DNA of 64,000 bases from Streptomyces sp. YIM 121038 (GTDB lineage Bacteria > Actinomycetota > Actinomycetes > Streptomycetales > Streptomycetaceae), in the NCBI RefSeq assembly GCF_006088715.1, contig NZ_CP030771.1, forward strand, positions 7,686,001 to 7,750,000. Reading direction: 5' to 3'. This document shows, piece after piece, positions 20,004-36,339 of the stretch. A program made the translations under genes and the position numbers. The notes below the pieces were generated by a model. That model saw nothing but the letters and a program-made list of their open reading frames with translations, had not been told where the DNA came from and searched no databases. Each line of letters starts with the position of its first letter. The first letter of the stretch is position 1.

Positions 20004-21002
20004 TCAGGGCGGCGGGGGCACGACCCGGGCGCGCCACTGGCCGGGACCTCCCCAAGCGCCGCGCAGGGCACGGGCCTTGAGGAGCCAGAGGGATATGTCG
20101 TACTCGGCGGTGTACCCGATGGCGCCGTGCAGTTGGAGCGCGGCCCGCGCCGAGCGGTACGCGGACTCGGCCGCGCAGACCTTGGCGGCGGCCACGTCCC
20201 CCCAGGCCTCCTCCGCGCCGAGCGACACCGCGGCTCCGAACACCAGGGGCCGCGCGAACTCGAGCCCCACGAGCACCTCGGCGAGGCGGTGCTTGACGGC
20301 CTGGAAGGACCCGACCGGCACCCCGAACTGCGTCCGCTGCCGCACATGGGCCACCGTGCGGTCGAGCAGCGCGCACCCCACGCCGAGGCACTGCGCCGCG
20401 GTGGTGAGCGCCGCCCAGCGCAGGGCCCATCGCGCCGCCTCCTCCACCGCGGGCCCGGACGCGAGCACCTCCCCGCCGGGCAGCGGCCGCGCGAGCCGCC
20501 GCGCCGGGTCGAGGGAGGCCCGCACGCGCGCGTGCCCGGGGGCGAGCCGCAGCCGCCCGGCGTCGACGGCCAGGAGGAGACCGGCGGCGTCCGCGTCGAG
20601 GACGTACGGCCCGGTGCCGGCGAGGGCGAGGGTCGCCCGCGCCTCGCCCGTCACCAGGGACGGAAGGAGCCGCTTCGCGGGCCCCGGCACGCCGAGTTCG
20701 GCGAGGCGGGAGAGGAGCGCGGCCGCGGCCACGGTCTCGACCAGCGGCCCGGGGACGGCGTGCCGCCCCAGCTCCACGAAGGCGACGGCGGTGTCGACGG
20801 GCAACTGCCCCACGCCCTCGAACTCCTCGGCCGCCGCGAGGGCGAACACCCCCGCGTCCGCGAGGCGTCGCCACACCGCGGCCCCCGGCGCGTGGTCCCC
20901 GGCGGCCCAGGCCCGCGCCACCGCGGGGGTGTCCGCGGCCTTCAGCGCGCCGTCGAGACTCCGGGCGAACGCCCGCTGCTCGTCGTCCAGAAGGAACCTC
21001 AT
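20004..21002 (-). CDS. fadE32: Acyl-CoA dehydrogenase, short (beta) subunit, FadE32-like
   Basis: A 332-residue acyl-CoA dehydrogenase of the short class found as partner subunits in steroid-degrading actinobacteria. It has RTQFGVPVGSFQAVKH for FAD contact and ALQLHGAIGYTAEYD near the end, but no catalytic glutamate at the standard site. In the characterised alpha2-beta2 enzymes the short chain completes the FAD site while the long one is catalytic. The ATG overlaps the upstream long-subunit stop by one base (TGATG), so equal synthesis is likely. By gene context and pairing it matches FadE32, late in HIP catabolism; FadE33 is an alternative. Confidence 0.8.
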   Translation of the reverse strand: MRFLLDDEQRAFARSLDGALKAADTPAVARAWAAGDHAPGAAVWRRLADAGVFALAAAEEFEGVGQLPVDTAVAFVELGRHAVPGPLVETVAAAALLSRLAELGVPGPAKRLLPSLVTGEARATLALAGTGPYVLDADAAGLLLAVDAGRLRLAPGHARVRASLDPARRLARPLPGGEVLASGPAVEEAARWALRWAALTTAAQCLGVGCALLDRTVAHVRQRTQFGVPVGSFQAVKHRLAEVLVGLEFARPLVFGAAVSLGAEEAWGDVAAAKVCAAESAYRSARAALQLHGAIGYTAEYDISLWLLKARALRGAWGGPGQWRARVVPPPP

Positions 21003-22189
21003 CAGCGCCGCCCCTTGGGGAGGCCGAGCAGGCGCTCGGCGATGATGTCGCGCTGGATCTCGTTCGTCCCCGCGTAGATGGGGCCTGCGAGGGAGAAGAC
21101 GTACCCCTCCGTCCAGGGCGCGGGGTCGGGGGCGTCCGGGGCGGGGCCGGGGCGCTCACCGGTGTCCGTCAACTCCCCGTCCGCGCCCAGGAGGTCGAGG
21201 GCCGCCTCGTGCACCGCGATGTCGTACTCCGACCAGAAGACCTTGTTCAGGCTGGAGTGCGCGCCGAGCTTCTCGCCCGCTTCCGCCCGCGAGGCGTGGG
21301 CCCAGGTGAAGAGCTGGTAAGCGCGGGCGCCGATCACCGCGTCCGCCACCCGGTCGCGCAGCGCCGTGTCGGCGGGGTCGCCGTGGGCGTGCCAGAGCCG
21401 GACGAGGCGGTCGGCGGTGGCGAGGAAGCGGCCGGGGGAGCGCAGGGCCAGACCGCGCTCGTCGCCGGTGGCCGCCATGGCGATGCGCCAGCCGTCGCCG
21501 GGGGCGCCGATCACGTCCTCCTCGGGGATGAACACGTCGTCCAGGAAGACCTCGGCGAAGGCGGGCTTGCCGTCGAGGCGGCCGATGGGGCGGATGGTGA
21601 CGCCGGGCGCGTCGAGCGGGAACATGACGTACGTGAGCCCCTGGTGCGGCCGCTCCGCGCGCGGGTCGCTGCGGAACAGGCCGAAGGCGCGGTCGGCGAA
21701 GGCGGCCCGCGACGACCACGTCTTCTGCCCGCTCAGGCGCCAGCCGCCGGGCGCGGTCCTGGCCGTGGAGCGCAGCGCCGCGAGGTCGGACCCGGCCTCC
21801 GGCTCCGACCAGGCCTGGGCCCAGACGACCTCGCCGCGCGCCATCGGCGGGAGGACCCGGGCGCGCTGCTGAGGGGTGCCGTGGTCGAAGAGGGTGGGGG
21901 CCAGGAGGCTGATGCCGTTCTGCGAGACGCGGCCAGGGGCGCCCGCCGCGTAGTACTCCTCCTCGAAGAGGAGCCACTTGACGAGGTCGGCGCCCTGTCC
22001 GCCGAACTCCTCGGGCCAGGACACCACCGACCAGCGGTCCGCCGCCAGCGTGCCCTCCCAGGCGCGATGGGCGGCGAAGCCCTCCGCGGTCTCCAGGGAC
22101 GGCAGCGGAGCGCGGGGGACGTGCGCGGCGAGCCAGGCCCGGGCCCGCAGTCTGAACTCCTCTTCCTCCGGGGTGAAGTCGAGGTCCAT
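21002..22189 (-). CDS. fadE31: Acyl-CoA dehydrogenase, long (alpha) subunit, FadE31-like
   Basis: A 395-residue acyl-CoA dehydrogenase. It has the FAD motifs WSEPEAGSDLA and WSSRAAF, and a C-terminal YAGTNEIQRDIIAERLLG. The medium-chain-type catalytic Glu before GTNEIQ is Ala, but Glu244 in GDERGLALR sits where isovaleryl-type and steroid enzymes keep theirs. Segments such as AEGFAAHR, APGRVSQNG, GLFRSD and LDLLGADGEL resemble mycobacterial FadE31, which acts on ring-opened HIP intermediates. First gene of a two-gene operon, divergent from ipdF with a KstR2-like site between. The exact step is inferred. Confidence 0.82.
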   Translation of the reverse strand: MDLDFTPEEEEFRLRARAWLAAHVPRAPLPSLETAEGFAAHRAWEGTLAADRWSVVSWPEEFGGQGADLVKWLLFEEEYYAAGAPGRVSQNGISLLAPTLFDHGTPQQRARVLPPMARGEVVWAQAWSEPEAGSDLAALRSTARTAPGGWRLSGQKTWSSRAAFADRAFGLFRSDPRAERPHQGLTYVMFPLDAPGVTIRPIGRLDGKPAFAEVFLDDVFIPEEDVIGAPGDGWRIAMAATGDERGLALRSPGRFLATADRLVRLWHAHGDPADTALRDRVADAVIGARAYQLFTWAHASRAEAGEKLGAHSSLNKVFWSEYDIAVHEAALDLLGADGELTDTGERPGPAPDAPDPAPWTEGYVFSLAGPIYAGTNEIQRDIIAERLLGLPKGRR

Positions 22190-22228
22190 CGCCCTGCTCC
22201 CGTCTCTGGCCCGCCCGTCCGCTCTTCC

Positions 22229-22246
22229 CTAACAAGTGTTTGGTAG
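22229..22246. promoter_or_regulatory. KstR2-like operator in fadE31/ipdF divergent promoter
   Basis: CTAACAAGTGTTTGGTAG fits the published KstR2 consensus AnCAAGnnCTTGnT at 9 of 10 fixed positions (one C is T). It lies 40 bp from the fadE31 start and 51 bp from the ipdF start, so it can control both transcripts. Confidence 0.75.
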
Positions 22247-22296
22247 ATTATCGTGGGAGCGGTCAGCCGTCGAGCACTCGATCGGGGGAATCGCCC

Positions 22297-23079
22297 ATGG
22301 CAGCGCCGCCGTACGAGCCGGGGCACGGTCTGCTCACCGGCCGCTCCGCCGTCGTCACCGCCGCGGCCGGCGCGGGCATCGGCGCGGCCACCGCCCGCCG
22401 CTTCCTGGAAGAGGGGGCCCGCGTCGTCATCGGCGACGCGCACGCCCGCCGCACCAAGGAGGCGGCGGCCGCGCTCGCGGACGAGTTCGGCCCCGACCGT
22501 GTCGACGGCCTCCGCTGCGACGTCACCGACGAGTCCGACGTGACCGCCCTCCTCGACCTCGCCGAGCGGCGCCACGGAACCCTGGACATCGTGGTGAACA
22601 ACGCGGGCCTGGGGGGCACCGCCGTCCTCACGGACATGACCGACGACATGTGGCACAAGGTCGTCGACACCACCCTGACCGGCACGTTCCGCTGCACCCG
22701 CGCCGCCCTGCGCCGCCTGCGCGCCACCGGCACCGGCGGCGTCGTGGTGAACAACGCCTCGGTGCTCGGCTGGCGCGCCCAGGAGGGCCAGGCGCACTAC
22801 GCCGCGGCCAAGGCGGGCGTCATGGCCCTCACCCGCTGCGCCGCCCTGGAGGCCGCCCCGCACGGCATCCGGGTCAACGCGGTCGCGCCGAGCCTCGCCC
22901 TGCACCCCCACCTCGCCAAGGTCACCACCGCCGACGTGCTCGACGAGCTCACCGCGCGCGAGGCCTTCGGGCGGCCCGCCGAGCCCTGGGAGATAGCCAA
23001 CGTCATCGTCTTCCTCGCCAGCGGCTACTCCTCGTACATGACGGGCGAGACGGTCTCCGTCAGCAGCCAGCACCCCTAG
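22297..23079 (+). CDS. ipdF: SDR dehydrogenase IpdF (5-OH-HIP-CoA type)
   Basis: A 260-residue short-chain dehydrogenase. Motifs are TAAAGAGIGAATAR (cofactor loop), NNAG, the catalytic serine in NNASVLGWRAQ, and YAAAK. The pattern GWRAQxxQxHYAAAKAGVMALTRC and the unusual ending with TGETVSVSSQHP match IpdF (Rv3559c), which acts on the HIP-CoA hydroxyl in steroid C/D ring catabolism. The ATG at 22297 is chosen; upstream codons to 22240 are in frame but overlap the promoter. It heads ipdF-kstR2-fadA6 and lies behind the KstR2-like operator. Confidence 0.85.
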   Translation: MAAPPYEPGHGLLTGRSAVVTAAAGAGIGAATARRFLEEGARVVIGDAHARRTKEAAAALADEFGPDRVDGLRCDVTDESDVTALLDLAERRHGTLDIVVNNAGLGGTAVLTDMTDDMWHKVVDTTLTGTFRCTRAALRRLRATGTGGVVVNNASVLGWRAQEGQAHYAAAKAGVMALTRCAALEAAPHGIRVNAVAPSLALHPHLAKVTTADVLDELTAREAFGRPAEPWEIANVIVFLASGYSSYMTGETVSVSSQHP

Positions 23080-23094
23080 GCGGAGAATGAGCCC

Positions 23095-23754
23095 GTGCCG
23101 ACCCAGAAACAGCCGACCCAGAGCCCCGTCGCGTCCCCCGTGGCCCGGAAGCAGAAGAAGCCCCCGGTGCCGCCCTCGCCCGAGCGCCGCGCCGAACTCC
23201 TCGGCATCGCCGCGGAGGTCTTCGCCGAGCAGGGGTACAACGCCACGACCGTCCGCAAGATCGCGGACGCCGCGGGCATGCTCGCGGGCAGCCTCTACTA
23301 CCACTTCGACTCCAAGGAGTCGATGCTCGAAGAGATCCTGCGGACGTTCCTGACGGAGCTGTGGGACGGGTACGACGCGGTCCTGGCCGCGCCGCTCGGC
23401 CCCCGCGAGACCCTGGAGGCCCTCGTCACCGAGTCCTTCCGGGAGATCGACCGGCACCGCGCGGCCGTCGCGATCTACCAGAAGGAGTCCCGCCACCTGG
23501 TCACCCAGACCCGCTTCGAGTACCTCCTGGAGTCCCAGCGGCGCTTCGAGAAGACCTGGCTCACCACGCTCGAACGGGGTGTCGCCGACGGCGCCTTCCG
23601 CGCCGACCTGGACGTCCGCCTCACCTACCGGTTCGTGCGCGACACCGTCTGGGTCGCCGCGTCCTGGTACCGGCCGGGCGGCGGCCACAGCCCCGAGGAG
23701 ATCGCCCGCCAGTACCTGTCGATGGTCCTGGACGGCATCGCCGTCCGCGCCTAG
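23095..23754 (+). CDS. kstR2: TetR-family repressor KstR2
   Basis: A 219-residue TetR repressor. The first ~28 residues are a basic tail; the HTH follows with ATTVRKIADAAGMLAGSLYYHFDSKESM. The ligand domain has EIDRHRAAVAIYQKESRHL and RFVRDTVWVAASWYRPGG, close to mycobacterial KstR2, which responds to HIP-CoA. The start is a GTG 15 bp after ipdF. Two matching palindromes lie in the divergent promoters on either side of the locus, supporting its role as the local regulator. It is probably autoregulated through the ipdF promoter. Confidence 0.9.
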   Translation: MPTQKQPTQSPVASPVARKQKKPPVPPSPERRAELLGIAAEVFAEQGYNATTVRKIADAAGMLAGSLYYHFDSKESMLEEILRTFLTELWDGYDAVLAAPLGPRETLEALVTESFREIDRHRAAVAIYQKESRHLVTQTRFEYLLESQRRFEKTWLTTLERGVADGAFRADLDVRLTYRFVRDTVWVAASWYRPGGGHSPEEIARQYLSMVLDGIAVRA

Positions 23755-23799
23755 CCCCGCGCCGCCGCGCGGCGCCCGTCACGCGAGGAGTACGCAGCC

Positions 23800-24957
23800 A
23801 TGGCCGAGGCCTTCATCGTCGAGGCGGTCCGCACGCCCGTCGGCAAGCGCGGCGGCGGCCTCGCCGCCGCGCACCCCGCCGACCTCGGTGCCCATGTGCT
23901 CACCGCGCTCATGGAGCGCAGCGGCGTCGACCCCGCCGCCGTCGACGACGTCGTCTTCGGCTGTCTCGACGCGGTCGGGCCGCAGGCCGGGGACATCGCC
24001 CGCACCAGCTGGCTCGCGGCCGGGCTCCCCGAGGAGGTGCCCGGAGTGACCGTCGACCGGCAGTGCGGATCGTCCCAGCAGGCCCTGCACTTCGCCGCAC
24101 AGGCGGTCCTCTCCGGCACCCAGGACCTCGTCGTCGCGGGCGGCACGCAGAACATGTCGATGGTCCCCATCGCCTTCGCGTCCCGGCAGGCGGCAGAGCC
24201 CCTCGGGCTCACCGAGGGCCCCTTCGCGGGCAGCGAGGGCTGGCGCGCCCGCTACGGGAACCGGCCCGTCAACCAGTTCCACGGCGCCCAGCTCATCGCC
24301 GACAAGTGGGGCATATCCCGCCAGGACATGGAGGAGTTCGCGCTCCGCTCCCACCGGCGCGCCCTGCGCGCCCTCGACGAGGGCCGCTTCGGCCGCGAGA
24401 CCGTGGCCTATGGAGACGTCGTCGCCGACGAGGGCCCGCGCCGCGACACGACCCCGGAGAAGATGGCGTCCCTCGCCCCCGTCATGGAGGGCGGCAGCAT
24501 CACCGCCGCCTGCTCCTCCCAGGTCTCCGACGGCGCCGCCGCCCTGCTCATCGCCGGTGAACGGGCGGTGCGGGACCACGGGTTGACCCCCCGCGCCCGC
24601 GTCCACCACCTCTCCGCGCGGGGCGAGGACCCGATCCGCATGCTCTCCGCCCCCATACCGGCCACCGCGCACGCCCTGAAGAAGACCGGCATGACGCTCG
24701 ACGCCATCGATCTCGTCGAGATCAACGAGGCGTTCGCGCCCGTCGTGCTCGCCTGGCTGCGGGAGACCGGCGCCGACCCGGAGAGGGTCAACGTCAACGG
24801 CGGCGCCATCGCCCTGGGTCACCCCCTCGGCGCCACCGGTGCCCGCCTGATGACGACGCTCCTGCACGAACTGGAGCGCACCGGCGGCCGGTTCGGCCTC
24901 CAGACGATGTGCGAAGGAGGTGGCCAGGCCAACGTCACCGTCATCGAACGGCTGTGA
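23800..24957 (+). CDS. fadA6: Thiolase FadA6 (HIP pathway)
   Basis: A 385-residue degradative thiolase that cleaves a beta-ketoacyl-CoA made during steroid C/D ring breakdown. The nucleophile is Cys89 in VDRQCGSSQQA; the other active-site elements GHPLGATGA and QTMCEGGGQANV are intact. Long stretches such as LPEEVPGVTVDRQCGSSQQA match mycobacterial FadA6. It follows kstR2 by 45 bp and is likely in the same transcript. It is less like PcaF, so it should not be read as the missing beta-ketoadipyl-CoA thiolase of the neighbouring pca genes. Confidence 0.92.
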   Translation: MAEAFIVEAVRTPVGKRGGGLAAAHPADLGAHVLTALMERSGVDPAAVDDVVFGCLDAVGPQAGDIARTSWLAAGLPEEVPGVTVDRQCGSSQQALHFAAQAVLSGTQDLVVAGGTQNMSMVPIAFASRQAAEPLGLTEGPFAGSEGWRARYGNRPVNQFHGAQLIADKWGISRQDMEEFALRSHRRALRALDEGRFGRETVAYGDVVADEGPRRDTTPEKMASLAPVMEGGSITAACSSQVSDGAAALLIAGERAVRDHGLTPRARVHHLSARGEDPIRMLSAPIPATAHALKKTGMTLDAIDLVEINEAFAPVVLAWLRETGADPERVNVNGGAIALGHPLGATGARLMTTLLHELERTGGRFGLQTMCEGGGQANVTVIERL

Positions 24958-25149
24958 CCGCGCCGCCCGCCGACGCGCGCCGTCCCGGGCGCCGCCCCGG
25001 CGCGCCGCACCCGTACCCCGCAGGTGGCCTGGCATATGACCGTGTGTCACCCGTGCGGGAGGAGCTGGCCGGACCACGCTCCGCGGCGGCCCCGGCCCGG
25101 CTAGTCTCAAGTTCTGTACGTCGATTGAGCGACCCCGGGAGGTAGCGCG

Positions 25150-27795
25150 ATGACGCAGGGACGGCCCGGAGGTGGCACCTGGGCCCCGCTGTGGGAGCGC
25201 GACGAGGAAATCGGCGCGGCCGAGCGGGCCGTGTCCGGACTGTGCTCGGACATGACGACCGAGGGCGGCCTGCTCGTCTTCAGCGGTGAGGCCGGACTCG
25301 GCAAGACCGCGCTCATGGCCGAAGTGCGTCGCATCGCCCACGGCCGGGCCACCGTATGGGCGGCACGCGGCGGCCCCACCCTCAAAACCGTGCCCTTCAA
25401 CGTCGTACGACAGCTCCTCCAGCCCGCCCTCGTGGCCCTCACCCCCGACGAGGCCCGTGAGTACCTCGGCGACTGGTACGAGATCGCGGGGCCCGCCCTC
25501 GGCATAGCCGAGCCCGGTGGCGGCAGGCCCGAGCCGCAGGCCGTGTGCGACGGCCTGAGCGCGGTGGTCTCCCGCCTCGCCCACCTCCACTGGCCGCTGG
25601 TGCTGCTCGTCGACGACGCGCACTGGGCGGACCAGGAGACGCTGCACTGGCTCGCCGCGTTCGCCGAGCGCCTGGACGACCTGCCGGTGCTCGTCGTGGT
25701 CGCCTACCGCCCCGGCGAGGCCGAGGGCGACAGCGTCCGCCACCTCGCGCGCATCGGCGCCGCCGCCCGCCCGGCGACCCAGCTGCGCAAGCTCACGCCG
25801 GACGCCACGGCCGGGCTCACCCGCGCCACGCTCGGCGAGCACGCGGACGGCCCGTTCTGCCGCGAGGTCTGGGCCGTCACCGACGGCAATCCGTACGAGT
25901 CCGTGGAGCTCCTCGCCAAGGTGCAGGACTGCGAGCTCGAACCGGTGGAGGGCTCGGCCGCCGAACTGCGCGCCCTGAACCGCTCCGCCCGCGGCCGCGG
26001 CCTCGTCGCCCGCCTCGAAGAGCTCGGCACCGACGTCACCCGCTTCGCCTGGGCCGCCGCGATCCTCGGCTCCGCGATCTCCGTCGACCTCGCCGCGTCC
26101 CTCGCCGGACTGCGCAGGGACGCGGCCGAGCGGTGCGCCGAGCGGCTGCGCACCGCCCGGATCGTGACCGGCGGCGAAGAGGGCCTGGAGTTCGTGCACC
26201 CGCTGATCGCCCACGCCGTCTACCACTCCATCCCGCCCGCCACCCGCACCGCGATGCACGGCCAGGCCGCCTGGGCGGTCACCCGCTCCGGGCGCGGCGC
26301 CGCCGCGGCCTCCCGGCACCTGCTCGAAGTCATCCCGGACGACGATCCCGAACTCGTCGAGCAGCTGCGCGAGGCCGCCACCGAGCACCTCGCGGTCGGC
26401 GCGCCCGACGCCGCCCGGCGCTGTCTGGAGCGGGCCCTGCGCGAGCCGCCCCGGCCCGACGTACACGCCCGCGTGCTCTACGAACTCGGCTGCGCCACCC
26501 TGCTCACCTCGCCCGTCACCACCATCGGGCACCTGCGCGAGGCCCTGTCGACGAGCGGCCTGAGCCAGGAGCTGCGCGTCGACGCCGTGTGCCGCCTCTC
26601 GCAGGCCCTCGTGCACAACGACCAGCTCGGCGACGGCCTGCGCGCCATCACCGAGGAGGCCGCCCGGCTGCCCGCGGGCACCGACCGGCTCCGCCTCCAG
26701 GCCGTGCACTTCATGTGGGAGGGCATCCACGCGGGCGAGGAGGACGCACCGGGGCGCTCGCGCAGGCTCGCCGCCCTCGCCGGACCCCTCGCCGGGCGCG
26801 ACAACGCCGAGCGCGCCCTGCTCATCCTGCGCGCCTTCGACGCGATGACACGCGGTGAGAACGCCGAAGAGGTCGTCGAGCTCTGCGACCGCGCCCTCGT
26901 CAACGGCCGCCTCGCGCCCGGGCTCGGCTGGACCGACGCCGAGTGGAGCTTCGAACTGCGCCTGATGCTCGGCGGTTCGTACGCCTTCGCCGACCGGCTC
27001 GACCGCGCCGAGAGCCTGTTCACCGAGGCCGTCAAGGCGTACGAGACGGCGGGCTGGAGCGGCGGCCACCTCGCGCTCGCGCACGCCTTCCTCGGCTATG
27101 TGTACCGCAGGCGCGGGCGGCTCAGGGACGCCGAGAAGTCGCTGCGCGAGAGCCTGCGGCTCGCCGACCGCGTGGGCCAGGGCGGGCTCCCGATGCACTG
27201 GGAGGCGGCCAGCATGCTCATCGACACGCTGCTCGCCCGCGGCCACGCCGAACAGGCCAGCGCCGTCGCCGACCGCTACGGCTTCGCGCCGCCCAACGCC
27301 TCCACGATCTACGTCCCCGACGCGATGTCCGTCCGCGGCAGGCTCCTGCTCGCCCTCGGCCGCCGGGAGGAGGGCCTCAACGAACTGGAGGCCACCGCCA
27401 AGGCGCTGACCGCGCGCGGCCAGTACAACACGGTGCTCGCGCCGTGGGCGTACGACCTGGCGCGGGCGCTCGCCGACGAGGATCCGCGGCGCGCCGCCGA
27501 CGTGGTCGCCGACGCGCGCGTGCAGGCCGAGCGGTTCGGCACGGACACGGCGATCGGCGAGGCGCTCCGGTGTGAGGCCGCGCTGGCCTCGGGACCGCGC
27601 TCCGTGACGCTCTACGCGAAGGCCGTGGCGTATCTGGAGGCCTCGCCCTGCGCGTACGAACACGCGGTCGCGCGCGTGGAGTACGGGGTCGCCTCGGGCA
27701 GCGTGGCGGAGCTGGAGCGCGGGCTCGCGCTGGCGCGCAGCTGCGGGGCCGATGGGCTGGCCGACCGGGCCGAGCGGTTCCTCGCGGCGGTCTAG
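25150..27795 (+). CDS. Large LAL-type AAA ATPase with TPR-like repeats, no LuxR domain
   Basis: An 881-residue protein built like the large LuxR-type (LAL) regulators. A STAND/AAA ATPase module comes first, with Walker A SGEAGLGKTALM at about residue 46 and Walker B LVLLVDDAHWAD near 155. A long helical TPR-like region follows from about 350. It ends at ADRAERFLAAV without the C-terminal LuxR helix-turn-helix, and the next 137 bases do not encode one. It probably acts through a partner protein. It stands in its own transcript inside the steroid locus, between fadA6 and convergent ipdC. Whether it senses steroids is unknown. Confidence 0.8.
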   Translation: MTQGRPGGGTWAPLWERDEEIGAAERAVSGLCSDMTTEGGLLVFSGEAGLGKTALMAEVRRIAHGRATVWAARGGPTLKTVPFNVVRQLLQPALVALTPDEAREYLGDWYEIAGPALGIAEPGGGRPEPQAVCDGLSAVVSRLAHLHWPLVLLVDDAHWADQETLHWLAAFAERLDDLPVLVVVAYRPGEAEGDSVRHLARIGAAARPATQLRKLTPDATAGLTRATLGEHADGPFCREVWAVTDGNPYESVELLAKVQDCELEPVEGSAAELRALNRSARGRGLVARLEELGTDVTRFAWAAAILGSAISVDLAASLAGLRRDAAERCAERLRTARIVTGGEEGLEFVHPLIAHAVYHSIPPATRTAMHGQAAWAVTRSGRGAAAASRHLLEVIPDDDPELVEQLREAATEHLAVGAPDAARRCLERALREPPRPDVHARVLYELGCATLLTSPVTTIGHLREALSTSGLSQELRVDAVCRLSQALVHNDQLGDGLRAITEEAARLPAGTDRLRLQAVHFMWEGIHAGEEDAPGRSRRLAALAGPLAGRDNAERALLILRAFDAMTRGENAEEVVELCDRALVNGRLAPGLGWTDAEWSFELRLMLGGSYAFADRLDRAESLFTEAVKAYETAGWSGGHLALAHAFLGYVYRRRGRLRDAEKSLRESLRLADRVGQGGLPMHWEAASMLIDTLLARGHAEQASAVADRYGFAPPNASTIYVPDAMSVRGRLLLALGRREEGLNELEATAKALTARGQYNTVLAPWAYDLARALADEDPRRAADVVADARVQAERFGTDTAIGEALRCEAALASGPRSVTLYAKAVAYLEASPCAYEHAVARVEYGVASGSVAELERGLALARSCGADGLADRAERFLAAV

Positions 27796-27835
27796 CGCTT
27801 CACGGGGCCGCGGCCGGCACACGGGTCGGGGCCGG

Positions 27836-27860
27836 GGCCGGAGTTGATCGGCCTCCGGCC
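27836..27860. terminator. Hairpin between ATPase gene and ipdC
   Basis: GGCCGGAG pairs with CTCCGGCC across a 9-base loop, with further outer pairing, between convergent genes. Downstream, CGAACGCCGGACGGGCTCGAC followed by repeats of GGGCTCGAC resembles a short element often scattered in Streptomyces intergenic regions (from memory). Confidence 0.6.
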
Positions 27861-27932
27861 TCGACCTCGAACGCCGGACGGGCTCGACGGGCTCGACGGG
27901 CTGGAACCCGTCCCTGTCGGTCGGCACAGCGG

Positions 27933-28997
27933 CTAAGGCCCTTCCAGGCGCTTCAGCGTCTCCTCGGCCTCCCCCATGATCCTCCCGATCAGCTCCTCGC
28001 AGGTCGGGACGTCGTCCAGGACGCCTGCCACCTGGCCCGCGGCCATGATGCCGCGGTCCGGGTCGCCGTCCACCATGGCCGACTTGAGGAGCATGGGGGT
28101 GTTCGCGGCGAGCAGGGCCTGGGACCAGGTCAGCCGCTTGGCGCGCTGCAGGGCCCGGCCGTCGCGGGCCAGATCGGGCCAGCTCAGGCCCGACATCCGG
28201 CGGAACGCCGCCGCGTGGCGCAGCGCGCGCAGCAGCGTCGCGGCGCGGCCGGAGCGCTCCAGGGACGTCACCAGGTCCGTGCGGAGCATCCGGTGCGGGA
28301 GGCCGTCCACGCGCGAGGTCAGCGTGACGTCCTTGACCGTGGCCGCGAGATAGCGGGCCTTCACGGCGTCCGGGACGGGGGACTCCGCGGTGAGGAGGAA
28401 GCGGGTGCCCATGGCCACGCCCGCCGCGCCGAAGGCCAGGGCGGCGACCAGGCCCCGGCCGTCGTGGAAGCCGCCCGCCGCCACGACGGGGATGTCGACG
28501 GCGTCCACGACCTGCGGCAGGAGCACGGTCGTGGCCACGTCACCGGTGTGGCCGCCGCCCTCGCCGCCCTGGACGACGACCGCGTCCGCGCCCCACGCCG
28601 CCACCTTCTCGGCGTGTCTGCGGGCGCCCACGGACGGCATCACGACGACTCCGGCCGCCTTGAGCTCCCCGATGAGGGCCTCGGACGGGGCCAGGGCGAA
28701 GGACGCGACCCGTACGCCCTCGGCGATGAGGAGCCGGACGCGGTCGCGCGCGTCGGCCGCGTCCGCGCGGAGGTTCACCCCGAACGGGGCGGACGTGCGG
28801 GACCTCACCTCCCGTATCGCCGAGCGCAGTCGCTCCAGGGACATCGTGGCGGAGGCCAGGACGCCGAGCGCGCCCGCGTCCGCCGCCGCCGAGACCAGAC
28901 GCGGGCCCGCGACCCAGCCCATGCCGGTCTGCACGATCGGGTACCGGACGCCGACGAGCCGCGTCAGCGGTGTCTCCAGGAGCGGCGCCGCCGTCAT
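27933..28997 (-). CDS. ipdC: Flavin-dependent oxidoreductase IpdC (nitronate monooxygenase-like)
   Basis: A 354-residue FMN-dependent TIM-barrel protein of the nitronate monooxygenase group. Visible are YPIVQTGMGWVAGPRLVSA at the start, VVQGGEGGGHTG with the active-site histidine, and VVAAGGFHDGRG/GAAGVAMGTRFLL for phosphate binding. In steroid degraders IpdC oxidises a ring-bearing CoA thioester before EchA20 opens ring D. Its ATG overlaps the ipdB stop (ATGA). It is the last gene of echA20-ipdA-ipdB-ipdC, the same order as in mycobacteria. Confidence 0.88.
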   Translation of the reverse strand: MTAAPLLETPLTRLVGVRYPIVQTGMGWVAGPRLVSAAADAGALGVLASATMSLERLRSAIREVRSRTSAPFGVNLRADAADARDRVRLLIAEGVRVASFALAPSEALIGELKAAGVVVMPSVGARRHAEKVAAWGADAVVVQGGEGGGHTGDVATTVLLPQVVDAVDIPVVAAGGFHDGRGLVAALAFGAAGVAMGTRFLLTAESPVPDAVKARYLAATVKDVTLTSRVDGLPHRMLRTDLVTSLERSGRAATLLRALRHAAAFRRMSGLSWPDLARDGRALQRAKRLTWSQALLAANTPMLLKSAMVDGDPDRGIMAAGQVAGVLDDVPTCEELIGRIMGEAEETLKRLEGP

Positions 28998-29761
28998 GGG
29001 CGGACCTCGCGCTCGCGCAGCCGCGCGGGGTCCAGGACGTCGCGGATCAGCCGCAGTTCGGCCGGTGCGGGCTCGCGGGTGCGGGGCGGCTCGTCGGGGA
29101 CGGGAAGTGCGAAGGACGTCGCCTCGCGGACCTGCGCCGCCGGCACGCCCGGGTGGACGGACACCAGGCGCATCGAGCGGTCGGGCGTGGCGAAGTCGAA
29201 GACGCCCAGGTCCGACACGACGCGGCGCAGGTCGTGGTAGCGGGTCGCGGAAGGGCCCGCCGCGGCGGCGCTGTCGTGGCCGACGCCGCTGACCATGTCG
29301 ACCTTCTCGACGAACACGCGCCGCGCGTGCTTCGGTATCCAGTAACTGACCGGGTTGTTCAGCGTGTTCACCGGGGCCCCGCGGACTCCGAGGAGCTGCC
29401 GGGTGGGGCGGTGCCAGTCGCCTACACAGGAGATGTTCTGGTTGCCGAAGCGGTCGATCTGGCTCGCGCCCATCATCACGTGCCGCCGCCCGCCCATCAC
29501 CATCGTCAGATGGCGGCGGAACGGCAGCCAGCCCTCCGTCACCGCCGAGGGCTCCCCGAGCGCGGGCACGTCCCCGATGAGCAGGGCCTCGCCGTCCGTG
29601 AGCAGCAGGTCCGGGGCGAACGTCAGCTTCGCGAGCCGGGCCGCGAGGGTGGGGACGGTGCCCATGGGGGCGGCCAGGACCTCGCCGTCGCCGCGCCACG
29701 CCTCGGCGCAGGCGATCACGCAGTACTCGGCGCGGGTGACGGCGGTCGTGGTGCGCGTCAT
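28994..29761 (-). CDS. ipdB: Ring-opening hydrolase subunit IpdB (CoA-transferase fold)
   Basis: A 255-residue class I CoA-transferase-fold protein. With IpdA it forms an enzyme that opens the last carbocycle of the steroid (COCHEA-CoA hydrolase) rather than moving CoA. It has EYCVIACAEAWRGDGEV at the start and the conserved MMGASQIDRFGNQNIS. The SENG motif of true CoA transferases, which pcaJ in this window does have, is absent. The start ATG at 29761 overlaps the ipdA stop by four bases. Confidence 0.88.
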   Translation of the reverse strand: MTRTTTAVTRAEYCVIACAEAWRGDGEVLAAPMGTVPTLAARLAKLTFAPDLLLTDGEALLIGDVPALGEPSAVTEGWLPFRRHLTMVMGGRRHVMMGASQIDRFGNQNISCVGDWHRPTRQLLGVRGAPVNTLNNPVSYWIPKHARRVFVEKVDMVSGVGHDSAAAAGPSATRYHDLRRVVSDLGVFDFATPDRSMRLVSVHPGVPAAQVREATSFALPVPDEPPRTREPAPAELRLIRDVLDPARLREREVRP

Positions 29762-30750
29762 CGCTGCTCCTTGTGCCAGGTGCGGACGGCCTGTCGGTAG
29801 TCCTCCTCGTCGCCGGACAGGAAGCGGTCGTGGAACTCCGCCCAGGCGTCGGGGGCGGCCGCCGCCGTGGCGTAGGCCTTCTGGAAGGGCTCGTCGCGGC
29901 CGTAGTCCGGCACGCACGAGGTGAAGTGCGCGCCCCCCGGGGTCTCGGTCACGCCCGTCACGCTGTGCCGCGAGACGAGCAGGGTCTGGGGTGCCGCCTG
30001 TGACGTCGGCGCGGGGGAGGCGGCTGTCGGCCCGGGGGAGGCAGGGGAAGCGGTGGGGGCTGGGGAGGCGGTGGACGTGGCCGGAGCGGCGCCGTCCGCA
30101 GGGGCGCCGAAGTCGACCAGGCGCTCGCACGACACGTACGCCGCGTCGGCCGCCTCGCAGAACAGGTCGTCGACGTACGGGTCGGGGCCCAGATACTGGC
30201 CGTTGCCCCGGCGGTCCGCGCGGTTCAGGTGCACCAGGGCGGCGTCCAGGCGCAGGGCCGGGACGGCGACGAGCTCCTCCCCGTCCCCGTACGGCGACGT
30301 GACCGTGCGCAGCTGGGGGTTGACCCGCAGGACGTCCGAGCCGAGACCGGCGCGCACGGGCAGGAACGGCAGGCGCTGGGCGGCGGCGGTGAGACCTTGC
30401 AGGAACATCGCCTCGTCCAGCTCGACGAGGTCGAGGCCGCCCCGCTCGCGGGCCGCCCGGAAGTGCGGCTCCAGGGGGATCGAGTCGAGCGTCACGAAGG
30501 CCGTGACCAGCTTGCGGATCCTCCCGGCGGCGAGGAGCAGGCCGACGTCCGGGCCGCCGTACGCCACGACGGTCAGGTCGGTGACGTCCGAGCGCAGCAG
30601 GGCCCGGACCAGGGCCATCGGCTTGCGGCGCGAGCCCCAGCCGCCGATGCCGAGCGTCATCCCGCTCTCCAGGCGCCCCACGACGTCCTCGGGAGCCATG
30701 GTCTTGTCCCGGCCGCCCCGGGCCCGAGGGGTGTCTGCCGGATCGCTCAT
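29758..30750 (-). CDS. ipdA: Ring-opening hydrolase subunit IpdA with low-complexity insertion
   Basis: A 330-residue class I CoA-transferase-fold protein, partner of IpdB. GIGGWGSRRKPMALVRAL and VVAYGGPDVGLLL begin the fold; VELDEAMF near residue 110 holds the acidic residues expected at the active site. Family members are about 290 residues; the excess is explained by a block at about residues 214-256 made almost only of Ala, Pro, Ser, Thr and Gly (ASPAPTASPASPG-like), placed after CERLVDFG and before LLVSRHSVTGV. The fold is otherwise intact, so the insertion is probably a surface loop. Start overlaps the echA20 stop (ATGA). Confidence 0.88.
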   Translation of the reverse strand: MSDPADTPRARGGRDKTMAPEDVVGRLESGMTLGIGGWGSRRKPMALVRALLRSDVTDLTVVAYGGPDVGLLLAAGRIRKLVTAFVTLDSIPLEPHFRAARERGGLDLVELDEAMFLQGLTAAAQRLPFLPVRAGLGSDVLRVNPQLRTVTSPYGDGEELVAVPALRLDAALVHLNRADRRGNGQYLGPDPYVDDLFCEAADAAYVSCERLVDFGAPADGAAPATSTASPAPTASPASPGPTAASPAPTSQAAPQTLLVSRHSVTGVTETPGGAHFTSCVPDYGRDEPFQKAYATAAAAPDAWAEFHDRFLSGDEEDYRQAVRTWHKEQR

Positions 30751-31532
30751 GCCGTGTCCTCCCCGGCCGGTACGGAGCTGTCGGGCGGCACGGAGGGCGC
30801 GCCGAAGCCTTCGCGGACGCGGGCGGCCACGCCGCTCAGGCTCGCCTCGAAGGTGAAGCCCTGCTCGAAGCGGTAGCTGCGGCGCACGTCCACCGGGTCG
30901 ATGCCGTTGATCGCGGCCTTGGCCAGGCGCAGCAGCGTGCCGTCCTTGCGGGCGATCTCGCGCGCGAGGGCGAGGGCCGCCGCGCGCAGGTCGGCGCGCG
31001 GCACGACCCGCCACACCGAGCCGTGCGCGTGCAGCTCGGCCGCGGTGGCCGTGCGCGACGTGTAGAACAGCGCGCGCATCAGGTGCTGGGGGACCAGACG
31101 GGCCAGGTGCGTGGCGGCGCCGAGCGCGCCGCGGTCCAGCTCCGGGAGGCCGAACGTGGCGTCGTCGCTCGCCACGATCGCGTCCGCGTTGCCCACCAGG
31201 CCGATGCCGCCGCCCAGGCAGAAGCCCTGGACGGCCGCGACGACCGGGACCGCGCAGTCGTACACCGCCGCGAAGGCCTCCGCGCAGCCGCGGTTGACGC
31301 CGAGCAGCGCGCCGTGGCCGGGGTCGCGGCGCAGCTCCTTGATGTCCACGCCCGCGTTGAACCCCCGGCCCTCGGCGGCGAGCAGTACGCAGCGCACGCC
31401 GGGGTCGCGGCCCGCGGCGCGCACCGCGTCCGCCAGGGCGAACCACCCGTGCACCGGAAGGGCGTTGACCGGTGCGTAGTCGACGGTGACGACGGCCACG
31501 CCCTCCTCGGGGGGCGAAGTGGAGACAGGCAT
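30747..31532 (-). CDS. echA20: Crotonase-fold ring-cleaving hydrolase EchA20
   Basis: A 261-residue crotonase-superfamily enzyme that hydrolyses ring D of the CoA-bound steroid remnant in the HIP pathway. It has GRGFNAGVDIKEL and GFCLGGGIGLVGNADAIVA, the two oxyanion-hole segments, then FGLPELDRGALGAATHLARLVPQHLMR, which is close to mycobacterial EchA20. It starts the minus-strand operon with ipdA, ipdB and ipdC, 71 bp from the divergent SDR gene, with a KstR2-like site between. Confidence 0.92.
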   Translation of the reverse strand: MPVSTSPPEEGVAVVTVDYAPVNALPVHGWFALADAVRAAGRDPGVRCVLLAAEGRGFNAGVDIKELRRDPGHGALLGVNRGCAEAFAAVYDCAVPVVAAVQGFCLGGGIGLVGNADAIVASDDATFGLPELDRGALGAATHLARLVPQHLMRALFYTSRTATAAELHAHGSVWRVVPRADLRAAALALAREIARKDGTLLRLAKAAINGIDPVDVRRSYRFEQGFTFEASLSGVAARVREGFGAPSVPPDSSVPAGEDTA

Positions 31533-31565
31533 CAGAGGATCCGCTACCTTTCAACCAGCGCCTTC

Positions 31566-31584
31566 AACCAAACATTTGTTAGTT
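31566..31584. promoter_or_regulatory. KstR2-like operator in echA20/SDR divergent promoter
   Basis: AACCAAACATTTGTTAGTT is a near-palindrome sharing its core with the site at 22229 (read on the other strand) and matching AnCAAGnnCTTGnT at 8 of 10 fixed positions. It lies 34 bp upstream of echA20 and 20 bp upstream of the SDR start. Confidence 0.7.
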
Positions 31585-31603
31585 GCTCAGGAAGGTAGCA
31601 GCG

Positions 31604-32368
31604 ATGACTGACAATCGACAGGTGGTCGTGGTCACCGGCGGCACCCGCGGCGTCGGGGCCGGGATCGCCCGCGGCTTCCTGGCCACCGGCGCGCACGTCG
31701 TCATCTGCGCCCGCAAGCCGCCCGAGCGGGCCGTCGAAGTGCCGGGCGCCACCGCGGAGTTCCGCCCGGCGGACCTGCGGGACGCCGCGGCGGCGCACGC
31801 CCTGATCGCCGGGGTCGCCGCCGACCACGGACGGCTCGACGTCCTGGTGAACAACGCGGGCGGCACGCCCTTCGGCCTCCTCGCCGGGACCACCGCCGCC
31901 CGTCAGACGAAGATCGTCCAGCTCAATCTGCTCGCCCCGCTGTACGCCTCCCTCGCCGCCCACGAGGTGATGAGCCGTCAGGAGACGGGCGGCGCCGTCA
32001 TCATGATCGGCAGCGTCAGCGGCACCCGCCCCTCGCCGGGCTCGGGAGCCTACGGCGCCGCCAAGGCGGGTTTGGCGAACCTGGCCCGCACCATGGCCGT
32101 CGAATGGGCCCCGCACGTGCGCGTGAACACCGTGGTGCTCGGCCTGGTCCGCACCGAGAGCACCCATCTGCACTACGGCGACGAGGAGGGGGTCGCCGCG
32201 GTGGCCCGGACGATCCCGCTCGGCCGCCTCGCCGACCCCGCGGACGCCGCCGACGCCTGCGTGTTCCTCGCCTCCGCCGCCGCGCGGTACATCAGCGGCG
32301 CGGCCCTCCAGGTGGACGGCGGCGGCGAACGGCCCGCGTTCCTGGACGCCGCGACCGTGAACCACTGA
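31604..32368 (+). CDS. SDR dehydrogenase of the HIP locus (Rv3549c-like)
   Basis: A 254-residue short-chain dehydrogenase. Cofactor loop VTGGTRGVGAGIAR, NNAGG, serine in IGSVSGTRPSPG, and YGAAK are present. It is placed exactly where mycobacteria have Rv3549c: divergent from echA20 and next to an Rv3548c-like gene. The start ATG at 31604 follows GGAAGG. The reaction has not been fixed; reduction or oxidation of a hydroxyl on a ring fragment is likely. Regulated by the adjacent KstR2-like site. Confidence 0.8.
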   Translation: MTDNRQVVVVTGGTRGVGAGIARGFLATGAHVVICARKPPERAVEVPGATAEFRPADLRDAAAAHALIAGVAADHGRLDVLVNNAGGTPFGLLAGTTAARQTKIVQLNLLAPLYASLAAHEVMSRQETGGAVIMIGSVSGTRPSPGSGAYGAAKAGLANLARTMAVEWAPHVRVNTVVLGLVRTESTHLHYGDEEGVAAVARTIPLGRLADPADAADACVFLASAAARYISGAALQVDGGGERPAFLDAATVNH

Positions 32369-32453
32369 GCCCGTACGCCTGACCCTCGTACCACTCACCC
32401 CCGCGCCGCCCGCCCGGCGCGCCGGACACCCCGCCCGTACGAAGGAGATCCGT

Positions 32454-33380
32454 ATGACCGCAGCCGTCGATTCCGGGATCTGCGCGGGCCGCGTCGTGAT
32501 CGTCACGGGTGCGGGCCGGGGCCTCGGCCGGGCGCACGCGCGCGCGTACGCGGCCGAGGGCGCGCGGGTCGTCGTCAACGACCTCGGGGCGGCCCGCGAC
32601 GGCTCCGGCGTCTCCGGAGGCCCCGCGCAGGACGTCGTCGAGGAGATCCGCGCGGCGGGCGGCGACGCCGTCGCGCACTGCGGCGACGTCGCGACCCCCG
32701 AGGGCGCCGCATCGCTCGTCCAGGCCGCCCTGGAGACCTACGGCCGCCTGGACACCCTCGTGAACAACGCGGGCTTCCTGCGCGACCGCATGCTGGTCAA
32801 CCTCGACGAGGACGACTGGGACGCGGTGCTCCACGTGCACCTCAAGGGCCACTTCCTGCCCCTGAAGCACGCGGGCGCGCACTGGCGGGCCGCGGCCAAG
32901 GCCGGGCGCGCCCCGCACGCGTGCGTGGTCAACACCAGCTCCGGAGCGGGCCTCCTCGGCAGTGTGGGGCAGGGCAACTACAGCGCGGCCAAGGCGGGCG
33001 TCCTCGGCCTCACGCTGGTCGCCGCCGCCGAACTCGCCGCCTACGGAGTGCGCGTGAACGCCCTCGCGCCCGCCGCCCGCACCCGCATGACCGAGCAGAC
33101 CTTCGCCGAGGCCATGGCCGCCCCCCAGGAGGGCGCCTTCGACGCCATGGCCCCGGAGAACGTGTCCCCGCTGGTCGTCTGGCTCGGCTCCACCGCGTCG
33201 GCCGGGGTCACGGGCCGCGTCTTCGAGGCCGAGGGCGGCCGCATCACCGTCATGGAGGGCTGGCGCCCCGGCCCCAGCGCCGACAAGGGCGCCCGCTGGA
33301 GCCCGGCCGAGGCGGGCGAGGCGGCCCTGAAGCTGCTCTCCCGCGCCGAGCCGCCGCAGCCGGTGTACGGGGCGCGCTGA
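32454..33380 (+). CDS. SDR dehydrogenase of the HIP locus (Rv3548c-like)
   Basis: A 308-residue SDR of the longer type related to the dehydrogenase domain of peroxisomal multifunctional enzyme. It has VTGAGRGLGRAHARAYAAEG, NDLGAARDGSG, NNAGFLRDRML, the serine in NTSSGAGLLGSVGQGNY, and YSAAK. C-terminal residues from about 240 extend past the fold with EGGRITVMEGWRPG. GAAGGAG precedes the ATG. It is probably co-transcribed with the SDR before it (85 bp gap) and is convergent with pcaG. Confidence 0.8.
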   Translation: MTAAVDSGICAGRVVIVTGAGRGLGRAHARAYAAEGARVVVNDLGAARDGSGVSGGPAQDVVEEIRAAGGDAVAHCGDVATPEGAASLVQAALETYGRLDTLVNNAGFLRDRMLVNLDEDDWDAVLHVHLKGHFLPLKHAGAHWRAAAKAGRAPHACVVNTSSGAGLLGSVGQGNYSAAKAGVLGLTLVAAAELAAYGVRVNALAPAARTRMTEQTFAEAMAAPQEGAFDAMAPENVSPLVVWLGSTASAGVTGRVFEAEGGRITVMEGWRPGPSADKGARWSPAEAGEAALKLLSRAEPPQPVYGAR

Positions 33381-33404: not shown

Positions 33405-33971
33405 TCACCCGAAGGCCAGGAACACCGTCTCGTCGTCTCCCTGGAGGTGGATGTCGAACCGGTACGTGCCGTGCGGACCCGGGCGCGCGAGCAGTGTCGC
33501 GCGCCGGTCGGGGGCCAGCGAGCGGAGCAGGGCGTCGTCCGGGTCGTCCGTCAGGTACGCGCGCGTGTACAGATGGTCCAGGAGCCCGCGCGCGAACACC
33601 GCGAGGCAGACGTACGGGGCGCCGCCCGGCCTGAGGGTGCGTACCGCCCAGTGCCCGTCCGGGTCCGTCGGCACCCGGCCGAAGCCCGTGAACGTGACGC
33701 CGTCGCGCCCCCGCGGCACCCCGCTGACCGCGTCCTGGCGCAGCGATCCGGGCGCGCCCGCGCGCGAGCCGTCCGGGGCGGCCTGCCACGTCTCCACGAG
33801 GCCGTCGTCCACGGGCACGCCCTTGCCGTCGTACACGTATCCGTGAAGGGTGACGGCGTCCGGATGGCCCGTGGGCGCGATCTCGCCACCGCGCGGGAAC
33901 GGCAGCGCGTAGCCGTGGTAGGGACCGATGGTCTGCGAGGGCGTCGGCGCGTGCGGCGGCGTGGCGCTCAT
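33405..33971 (-). CDS. pcaG: Protocatechuate 3,4-dioxygenase alpha subunit
   Basis: A 188-residue alpha subunit of intradiol protocatechuate dioxygenase. It starts with SQTIGPYHGYALPFPRGG, has LHGYVYDGKGVPVDDGLVETWQA and ends with RFDIHLQGDDETVFLAF, all typical. The alpha chain is structural and substrate-binding; the iron sits in beta. The ATG at 33971 overlaps pcaH stop (ATGA). In Streptomyces coelicolor pcaB and pcaL follow; here the next gene, 24 bp away, is convergent and unrelated. Confidence 0.95.
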   Translation of the reverse strand: MSATPPHAPTPSQTIGPYHGYALPFPRGGEIAPTGHPDAVTLHGYVYDGKGVPVDDGLVETWQAAPDGSRAGAPGSLRQDAVSGVPRGRDGVTFTGFGRVPTDPDGHWAVRTLRPGGAPYVCLAVFARGLLDHLYTRAYLTDDPDDALLRSLAPDRRATLLARPGPHGTYRFDIHLQGDDETVFLAFG

Positions 33972-34744
33972 GCGGCACCGTCCTCGAAGCGGGTGGCGGA
34001 CGGGCCGTCCAGGACGATGTCCCAGCGGTAGCCGAGCGCCCACTCCGGCACCGTCAGACCGTGGTCGTACGCGGCCACCAGACGGGCCCGCGCCGCCTCG
34101 TCGGGGATCGACAGGAAGACGGGGTCGTAGGCGAGCAGCGGATCGGCCGGGAAGTACATCTGGGTCACCAGGCGCTGCGCGAACGCCCGGCCGAACAGCG
34201 AGAAGTGCAGATGGGCGGGGCGCCAGGCGTTGTCGTGGTTGCGCCAGGGGTAGGCGCCGGGCCGGATCGTGGTGAAGGAGTACGCGCCGTCGTCGTCGGT
34301 CAGACAGCGGCCGAAGCCGGTGAAGTTCGGGTCGAGCGGCGCCGCGTGCCCATCGCGCCGGTGCACGTATCTGCCGGACGCGTTGGCCTGCCACATCTCG
34401 ACCAACTGGCCGCGCAACGGGCGCCCGTGATGGTCTGTCAGGCGCCCCGAGACGGTGATGCGCTCGCCGAGGGGCTCGCCCGTGTGCTGGCGGGTCAGAT
34501 CGCGCTCGAAGTCGGTGACGTCCGCGACGCCGAAGACCGGCCCGGTCAGCTCCACGGCCTCCGGGTCGCGGACGGGCACGGCGGAGTGGTGCGGATGGCG
34601 CAGCAGGGCCCCGCGGTAGGGCGGGACGCCGTGGGGCGTGCCGGGTCGCGAGGGCGCGGCGGCGCCCGGTGCGGCCCGGCCGCCGCCCGGCACGGCGCCC
34701 CTCCGGCGCGCGCTCAGGTCCTCGTACGGGGGATGGGGGGTCAT
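33968..34744 (-). CDS. pcaH: Protocatechuate 3,4-dioxygenase beta subunit
   Basis: A 258-residue beta subunit carrying the catalytic Fe(III). The ligands are visible: tyrosines in ASGRYVHRRD and PGAYPWRN and histidines in RPAHLHFS. The core starts at about PPYRGALLRHP; the ~40 residues before it are a Gly/Ala/Pro-rich extension. With PcaG it cleaves protocatechuate to 3-carboxy-cis,cis-muconate. It lies 39 bp after pcaJ; pcaF, which sits between them in S. coelicolor, is missing. Confidence 0.95.
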   Translation of the reverse strand: MTPHPPYEDLSARRRGAVPGGGRAAPGAAAPSRPGTPHGVPPYRGALLRHPHHSAVPVRDPEAVELTGPVFGVADVTDFERDLTRQHTGEPLGERITVSGRLTDHHGRPLRGQLVEMWQANASGRYVHRRDGHAAPLDPNFTGFGRCLTDDDGAYSFTTIRPGAYPWRNHDNAWRPAHLHFSLFGRAFAQRLVTQMYFPADPLLAYDPVFLSIPDEAARARLVAAYDHGLTVPEWALGYRWDIVLDGPSATRFEDGAA

Positions 34745-34783
34745 GGTGGCTGCCGCTCCCTTCCGGACCGGTCGGGCCGGTCC

Positions 34784-35422
34784 TCACGCGTCGGGGACGC
34801 GCACCTTCGCCGCCGTCCGCGCGACGATCTCGGTGACGCCGACTCCCGGCGCGCGCTCGGTCAACTGAAGTCCGTCCTCGGTGACGTCGAAGACGCCGAG
34901 GTCCGTGATGACGCGGTGCACACACCGCCTGCCGGTGAGCGGCAGGTCGCACTCCTGCACGAGCTTGGGCGAGCCGTCCTTGGCGGTGTGGGCCATCGTC
35001 ACGATCACCCGGCGGGCGCCGTGCACCAGGTCCATCGCCCCGCCGATCCCCGTCACGAGCCGCCCGGGGACCGCCCAGTTGGCGAGGTCCCCGCGCGCGG
35101 AGACCTGCATCGCGCCCAGGACCGCCACGTCGAGGTGGCCGCCGCGGATCATCCCGAACGACAGCGCCGAGTCGAAGTACGCCGCCCCGGGCAGCGCCGT
35201 CACCGTCTCCTTGCCCGCGTTGATCAGGTCCGGGTCGACCGCGTCCGCCGTGGGGTAGGGGCCGACGCCCAGGACGCCGTTCTCGGACTGGACGACCACC
35301 TCCACGCCCGGCGGCAGGAAACCCGGGATCAGCGTCGGCAGGCCGATGCCCAGATTGACGTACTGGCCGTCCCGCAGTTCGCCCGCCGCCCGGGCCGCCA
35401 CCTGCTCGCGGGTCCACGCCAT
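34784..35422 (-). CDS. pcaJ: 3-oxoadipate CoA-transferase beta subunit
   Basis: A 212-residue class I CoA-transferase beta subunit. The catalytic glutamate is in the [12 protein letters not shown] motif and [17 protein letters not shown] follows. Its ATG overlaps the pcaI stop by one base (TGATG). With PcaI it transfers CoA from succinyl-CoA to 3-oxoadipate. Sequence alone does not separate it from succinyl-CoA:acetoacetate transferases (ScoB); the adjacent pcaH, pcaG and pcaV genes decide it. Confidence 0.88.
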
Positions 35423-36177: not shown

Positions 36178-36203
36178 CCGGGCAGCCTCGTCTCCCTGCG
36201 ATC

Positions 36204-36217
36204 GTCAGCACACTGAC
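36204..36217. promoter_or_regulatory. Inverted repeat near pcaI start (candidate PcaV site)
   Basis: GTCAG-CACA-CTGAC is a perfect 5-bp inverted repeat 27 bp upstream of pcaI. Given the divergent MarR gene, it is a candidate operator. Confidence 0.45.
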
Positions 36218-36317: not shown

Positions 36318-36339
36318 TCGTGTCAGGGAGGGGGCCGCC

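Follow-up and report, generated by a model that had tools for sequence, protein, structure and literature searches.

The window cluster and its predicted operators

The window analysed here is a stretch of 64,000 nucleotides (C1:7686001-7750000) from a Streptomyces genome (G000) of 11,098,444 bases in two contigs, C1 and C2, rated 100% complete and 1.1% contaminated. At positions 20004-33380 it holds a cluster corresponding to the mycobacterial KstR2 regulon, whose genes break down methylhexahydroindanedione propionate (HIP), the C/D-ring remnant of cholesterol. We argue that this cluster probably belongs to a split, free-standing HIP-type pathway that is common among Streptomyces and uncoupled from the breakdown of rings A/B. 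All of the named genes are intact, with uninterrupted reading frames, and are given below with their identities to mycobacterial proteins or to those of G003, a mycobacterium-like comparison genome.

20004..21002, minus strand: fadE32, subunit of the dehydrogenase of 4-methyl-5-oxo-octanedioic acid (MOODA)-CoA; 45% to mycobacterial FadE32, its best match
21002..22189, minus strand: fadE31, acyl-CoA dehydrogenase; 60% to mycobacterial FadE31, with which it clusters in the tree (SH-aLRT 100)
22229..22246, no strand: predicted KstR2-like operator CTAACAAGTGTTTGGTAG, between fadE31 and ipdF
22297..23079, plus strand: ipdF, short-chain dehydrogenase/reductase (SDR); 61% to mycobacterial IpdF; PRK07831 434 bits, above cut-off
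23095..23754, plus strand: kstR2, TetR repressor; 49% to G003 KstR2; 233 bits to 2ibd
23800..24957, plus strand: fadA6, thiolase; 63% to mycobacterial FadA6; PRK07801 687 bits (cut-off 591)
25150..27795, plus strand: AAA_16 ATPase with a tetratricopeptide repeat (TPR) region (Pfam), between fadA6 and ipdC
27933..28997, minus strand: ipdC; 61% to mycobacterial IpdC
28994..29761, minus strand: ipdB; 51% to G003 IpdB; 313 bits to 6co6 chain B, next family 60
29758..30750, minus strand: ipdA; 50% to G003 IpdA; 320 bits to 6co6 chain A, next family 72
30747..31532, minus strand: echA20; 63% to mycobacterial EchA20, next match 30%
31565..31582, no strand: predicted KstR2-like operator CAACCAAACATTTGTTAG, between echA20 and SDR
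31604..32368, plus strand: SDR, Rv3548c-like; 56% to its mycobacterial counterpart
32454..33380, plus strand: SDR, Rv3549c-like; 63% to its mycobacterial counterpart

For 11 of the 12 window proteins the best tblastn match in the G003 steroid cluster was the positional orthologue (45-63% identity); the names of the G003 genes, assigned largely by gene order, are our assumption, as is the correspondence of the NCBIfam PRK models to Rv genes. The members of the KstR2 regulon that were present are ipdA, ipdB, ipdC, ipdF, echA20, fadA6, kstR2, fadE31, fadE32 and the two SDR genes, laid out with the divergent echA20/SDR pair and a second divergent promoter. The gene order is the mycobacterial order reversed, without exactly fadD3, fadE30 and fadE33, none of which is in the cluster. 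Orthology, matches to solved structures and gene order therefore confirmed the genes and the order, divergent pair included, that the first-pass annotation had claimed, and comparison with the G003 cluster bore out its placing of fadD3, fadE30 and fadE33 outside this one.

Several individual assignments were examined further. The window KstR2 scored 194 bits against the chains named KstR2 (4w97 and 4w1u; next family 81), IpdF has its YxxxK motif at 168, and the two SDRs exceed their NCBIfam cut-offs (PRK07856, 368 bits; PRK07791, 482 bits). IpdA has a glutamate, Glu113, aligned with the residue altered in the 6coj variant, a position that we take to be catalytic. Among solved structures EchA20 matched generic crotonases alone (best 82 bits), so its name rests on the G003 comparison and on position. 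The fadE32 product scored 124.6 bits against the IpdE2 model, below the cut-off of 450. Window IpdA also carries an Ala/Pro/Ser/Thr-rich insert at about residues 214-254 that the RHA1 protein does not have. As judged by best-match scores and a concatenated tree, rather than a broad outgroup tree, ipdA, ipdB, echA20 and kstR2 did not fall outside the steroid clades.

The two predicted operators, about which the first-pass annotation was silent, are nearly identical and each lies at a divergent promoter. They fit the variant CTAnCAAnnnnTTGnTAG of the published KstR2 motif AnCAAGnnCTTGnT (Kendall 2010), with one mismatch from the published core in the 22229 site and two in the 31565 site, and they occupy the two promoters homologous to those with exact ANCAAGNNCTTGNT in G003. 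In 100 kb of G003, exact AnCAAGnnCTTGnT was found solely at the echA20/SDR and fadE30/fadD3 promoters. In our whole genome only three sites lay within one mismatch of CTANCAANNNNTTGNTAG, two being the window operators. The echA20/SDR operator had one mismatch in 77/79 relatives examined (two and three mismatches in the remaining two), and the ipdF-promoter operator was within one mismatch in 55 of 69, the other 14 having no good site there (5-7 mismatches). As a random control, 5 of 400 260-base stretches of the same loci contained a site within one mismatch, with overlap with known sites possible. Two further KstR2-like sites, C1:5021974 (one mismatch) and 2236802 (two mismatches), were rejected because nothing recognisably catabolic is encoded within 3.5 kb of them.

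Orthology, gene order, predicted operators and trees thus support the proposal of an HIP-type C/D-ring locus with KstR2-like control, and sequence comparison confirmed 20004-33380 as orthologous to the mycobacterial KstR2 cluster.

Candidate entry genes at a second locus

FadD3 and FadE30/FadE33 begin HIP breakdown in mycobacteria, according to published work. The genome-wide search for these genes that the first-pass annotation had called for located homologues at C1:4379-4408 kb (locus 2), 3.3 Mb from the window cluster: a fadD3 candidate (C1:4379577-4381187), fadE30 about 26 kb beyond it (4407063-4408268; 58% identity to mycobacterial FadE30) and, between the two, a FadE33-like gene (4393370-4394704). 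The fadD3 candidate is the best FadD3 match in the genome (518 bits; next 289), and its product scored 775 bits against the NCBI FadD3-family model (cut-off 657), for which the G003 copy scored 834 and one Streptomyces steroid-cluster copy 691. In quick trees the locus-2 FadD3s grouped with mycobacterial and steroid-cluster FadD3 (SH-aLRT 85, but the branches were long and the outgroup was broken). The FadE30s of locus 2 joined those of mycobacteria and of the clusters (SH-aLRT 94), separate from FadE31 (100). Another acyl-CoA dehydrogenase pair (C1:8612554-8614847) was considered as IpdE1/IpdE2 and, despite the best IpdE2-model match in the genome (193 bits), set aside because its small subunit is found not only in 81 of 86 ipdB-bearing genomes but also in 23 of 35 ipdB-less ones, and its large subunit lies outside the FadE30 and FadE31 groups in the tree. 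The ACOX Pfam model had no match anywhere, controls included, and was thus uninformative.

Seven of the seven Streptomyces compared share a locus-2 core of fadD3, an Ltp2-like thiolase, ChsH2/DUF35, EchA, TetR (at C1:4392114 here), the FadE33-like gene, a second Ltp/DUF35 set, a flavin-containing-monooxygenase (FMO)-like protein, an ADP-forming CoA ligase, an HsaB-like flavin reductase, EchA, an alcohol dehydrogenase, FadE30, an SDR and a cyclase. A FadE pair and a second FadD accompany it in six (G233 has neither), and the order is conserved, except that the window genome has four genes (4401967-4405937) inverted as a block relative to the others.

Locus 2 has an operator of its own. Within one mismatch, CTGACN5GTCAG occurs at 16 sites in 60 kb, none of which falls inside a called gene and one of which spans the probable TetR start; seven other Streptomyces each have 9 to 14 such sites outside genes (83/90 overall), and in ten control stretches totalling 194 kb there were 13 sites, six of them outside genes. 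The operons in C1:4366000-4415532 (L146, L111, L147, L148) are coherent and share this operator, and the region is probably one TetR regulon. None of the window-cluster promoters contains CTGACN5GTCAG. Elsewhere in the window an exact match (46948-46962) lies 13 bases upstream of a multicopper oxidase gene (46976-48004); the motif is not in excess in the window as a whole, 22 of 100 shuffles reaching the observed count.

The locus-2 gene set resembles, from its predicted protein families, those for the breakdown of steroid side chains and terpenoid acids. The two loci could therefore jointly degrade a different acid, polycyclic or terpenoid, e.g. a hydrindane with a D-ring side chain, by a pathway that would use the HIP enzymes for its last steps only. 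Such a pathway would account for the two Ltp-type thiolases, each with ChsH2/DUF35, the further acyl-CoA dehydrogenases and second CoA ligase, the F420-dependent luciferase-like monooxygenase (LLM) oxidoreductase, the FMO-like protein and HsaB-like flavin reductase, the aldehyde dehydrogenase nearby and the separate TetR-type operator. However, the HIP entry enzymes FadD3 and FadE30 are in the core of the locus and co-occur with ipdB, and we regard this explanation as unlikely.

Ring A/B genes and co-occurrence across Streptomyces

A search of the genome for ring A/B genes, also suggested by the first-pass annotation, gave no match to HsaC at E 1e-3, a best KstD match of 27 bits and, from the KshA family, two distant Rieske proteins of 62 and 61 bits (G003 has three at 300-306). 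The two are KshA_C-family Rieske oxygenases encoded in tandem at C2:917317-918992 (L014, L016). The KshA and HsaC demanded by Bergstrand 2016 were thus not found together here; of the eight key enzymes of that survey, the search covered these two and KstD.

The two KshA_C-family proteins are what could be expected of an ordinary whole-steroid degrader with ring A/B enzymes too diverged for detection. Against this, the same HsaC query found proteins of 254-297 bits and 45-50% identity in nine other Streptomyces, all with ipdB and six within 20 kb of it, and none here; the best KstD match is that of 27 bits; and four Streptomyces clusters of the steroid type encode readily recognised KshA, KstD and HsaC, their KshA sharing 56-57% identity with its mycobacterial counterpart. 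An undetected complete pathway is therefore very improbable. Of the two possibilities raised by the first-pass annotation, i.e. entry genes elsewhere or another substrate, the first is now backed by homologues of fadD3 and fadE30 together with a FadE33-like gene, and the second can be narrowed: because ring A/B genes were not found, a C/D-ring acid from outside the cell is a likelier substrate than a whole steroid.

We surveyed 121 Streptomyces genomes for the genes of the two loci, counting as ipdB the matches of 283 bits or more; the next score down was 104 bits. More distant paralogues resembling IpdB, with about 31-40% identity and scores of 54-104 bits (e.g. G039:C2:156106-156867), occur with or without true ipdB. 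ipdB was present in 86 genomes, locus-2-type fadD3 in 86 and fadE30 in 85; all three were found in 80 and none in 32. ipdB and fadD3 occurred together in 83 genomes, each alone in 3, and neither in 32; ipdB and fadE30 occurred together in 83, with ipdB alone in 3, fadE30 alone in 2 and neither in 33. Two of the exceptions that have fadD3 and fadE30 and no ipdB are genomes 78-79% complete, and one fadD3 (G295) is only 56% identical. Fifteen genomes have a FadE30 of another type (62-64% identity to the query), the sole FadE30 in nine. In those nine its gene is no more than about 10 kb from ipdB, so the two FadE30 positions appear to substitute for each other.

HsaC was the sole proxy for ring A/B breakdown in this survey. 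It reached at least 254 bits in 9 of the 86 ipdB-bearing genomes, and HsaC-like proteins of 172-231 bits, which may include more steroid degraders, occurred in 11 further genomes, 9 with ipdB; 68 to 77 of the 86 are therefore without a plausible HsaC. KshA lay beside the cluster in 7 of 80 named loci (flanks of up to 10 kb, shorter in some). On a 76-row concatenated tree the 10 ring-A/B-bearing clusters, one probably counted twice (L044 and G279), were scattered, with at least six changes, four of them forced by well-supported branches. Because of this scatter the C/D module is best described, as far as trees and substitution rates can tell, as gained or lost independently of ring A/B, yet under purifying selection (dN/dS 0.08-0.42 in 33 comparisons). 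The scatter makes loss plausible, but a functionless, decaying remnant of a complete steroid cluster is scarcely credible given 11 uninterrupted genes, such dN/dS values, conserved operators and co-retained remote partner genes.

Proposed pathway and its standing

In the split HIP-type pathway that we favour, a hydrindane acid such as HIP would be activated by the locus-2 FadD3 (C1:4379577-4381187), and its propionate side chain would be shortened at the same locus by FadE30, the FadE33-like protein, EchA and a thiolase or Ltp/DUF35 aldolase. The product would be oxidised by IpdF and IpdC, EchA20 would open one ring and IpdAB would hydrolyse the other, FadA6 would release acetyl-CoA to leave MOODA-CoA, and FadE31/FadE32 would continue. 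This is the published mycobacterial order of steps; Crowe 2017 describes the pathway enzymes, with FadE32 as MOODA-CoA dehydrogenase and HIP-CoA as the KstR2 effector. The KstR2-like repressor would act at the two window operators and, if its effector is HIP-CoA as published for actinobacteria, the window genes would open only after the remote FadD3 has acted. Given that the search yielded no recognisable ring A/B genes, the C/D-ring acids consumed would be ones that other organisms release. Conversion of HIP to MOODA by Streptomyces rubescens (Hashimoto and Hayakawa 1977, cited in Crowe 2017) counts in favour of the pathway.

Several results weigh against it. At two mismatches the operator pattern has 14 sites in the genome and its reversed control 35, i.e. 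the pattern is no commoner than the control. Locus 2 has no KstR2-like site within two mismatches and, as it also has its own operator, the two loci are not one regulon. The FadE33-like match is weak (IpdE2 model, 171 bits; cut-off 450), and both KshA_C-family proteins exceed the Pfam cut-off of 23.3. Kinship of the genomes inflates the co-occurrence, which the Fisher p values (2e-22 and 8e-24) therefore exaggerate. Finally, the nine genomes with steroid-type HsaC carry a second FadD3-like copy near ipdB as well as the locus-2 type, and the locus-2 ligase may therefore serve another acid.

The cluster resembles the KstR2 regulon (HIP cluster) of Mycobacterium and Rhodococcus in its eleven genes, their order, the divergent promoters and, at two corresponding positions, the KstR2-like operators; it differs in that the fadD3, fadE30 and fadE33 homologues are remote and ring A/B genes were not found. 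Complete steroid clusters in a minority of Streptomyces (G279, G267, G276, G269) encode proteins 61-86% identical to those of the window but also hold kshA, kshB, hsaA, hsaC, kstD, fadE30, a FadE33-like gene and FadD3. Split arrangements are described elsewhere: fadD3 lies outside the steroid clusters in Saccharopolyspora hirsuta, and C/D genes lie apart from other steroid genes in Amycolatopsis mediterranei and Thermomonospora curvata. In these three, however, ring A/B or the rest of the pathway is described elsewhere in the genome. What is new here is that candidate entry genes form a second, apparently separately controlled locus that travels with the cluster through the genus, the first half of the steroid pathway not being found in the genome.

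The survey of Bergstrand 2016 credited a genome with the pathway if it had six or more of eight key enzymes, KshA and HsaC among them, and by this measure 55 of 57 Streptomyces were without it; by demanding KshA and HsaC, its criteria exclude genomes such as this. Extracellular intermediates and cross-feeding in steroid breakdown are discussed by Feller 2021, and the openly licensed literature searched contained no description of an HIP-only Streptomyces. If the split pathway is real, the second half of steroid breakdown would be an independent trait of many Streptomyces, pointing to a division of labour in soil steroid turnover in which one organism opens rings A/B and another finishes. More tentatively, we suggest that Streptomyces may have an as yet unnoticed pathway for hydrindane (C/D-ring) acids made up of two loci and two regulons. 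One locus, some 45 kb long and with the TetR-type operator, would use FadD3, FadE30, Ltp/DUF35 pairs and flavin-dependent enzymes to feed such acids, possibly side-chain-bearing, to the KstR2-controlled ring-opening module, and much of the genus would be consumers of steroid leftovers from other microbes.

The host is Streptomyces by its IpdB as well: the 80 named-genome loci retained for this protein are all Streptomyces (at least 527 relatives confirmed), and the closest IpdB, 98% identical, is that of Streptomyces sp. NPDC047071. An IpdB is also listed for S. venezuelae. The AAA/TPR gene (25150-27795), like the operators missing from the first-pass annotation, has no tblastn match in the G003 steroid cluster and no helix-turn-helix in the Pfam scan; a homologue lies between ipdC and fadA6 in 14 of the 80 named relatives. 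Adjoining the cluster, 33405-36795 holds a gene set of the beta-ketoadipate type: a MarR gene and two genes each of the intradiol-dioxygenase type and for CoA-transferase subunits.

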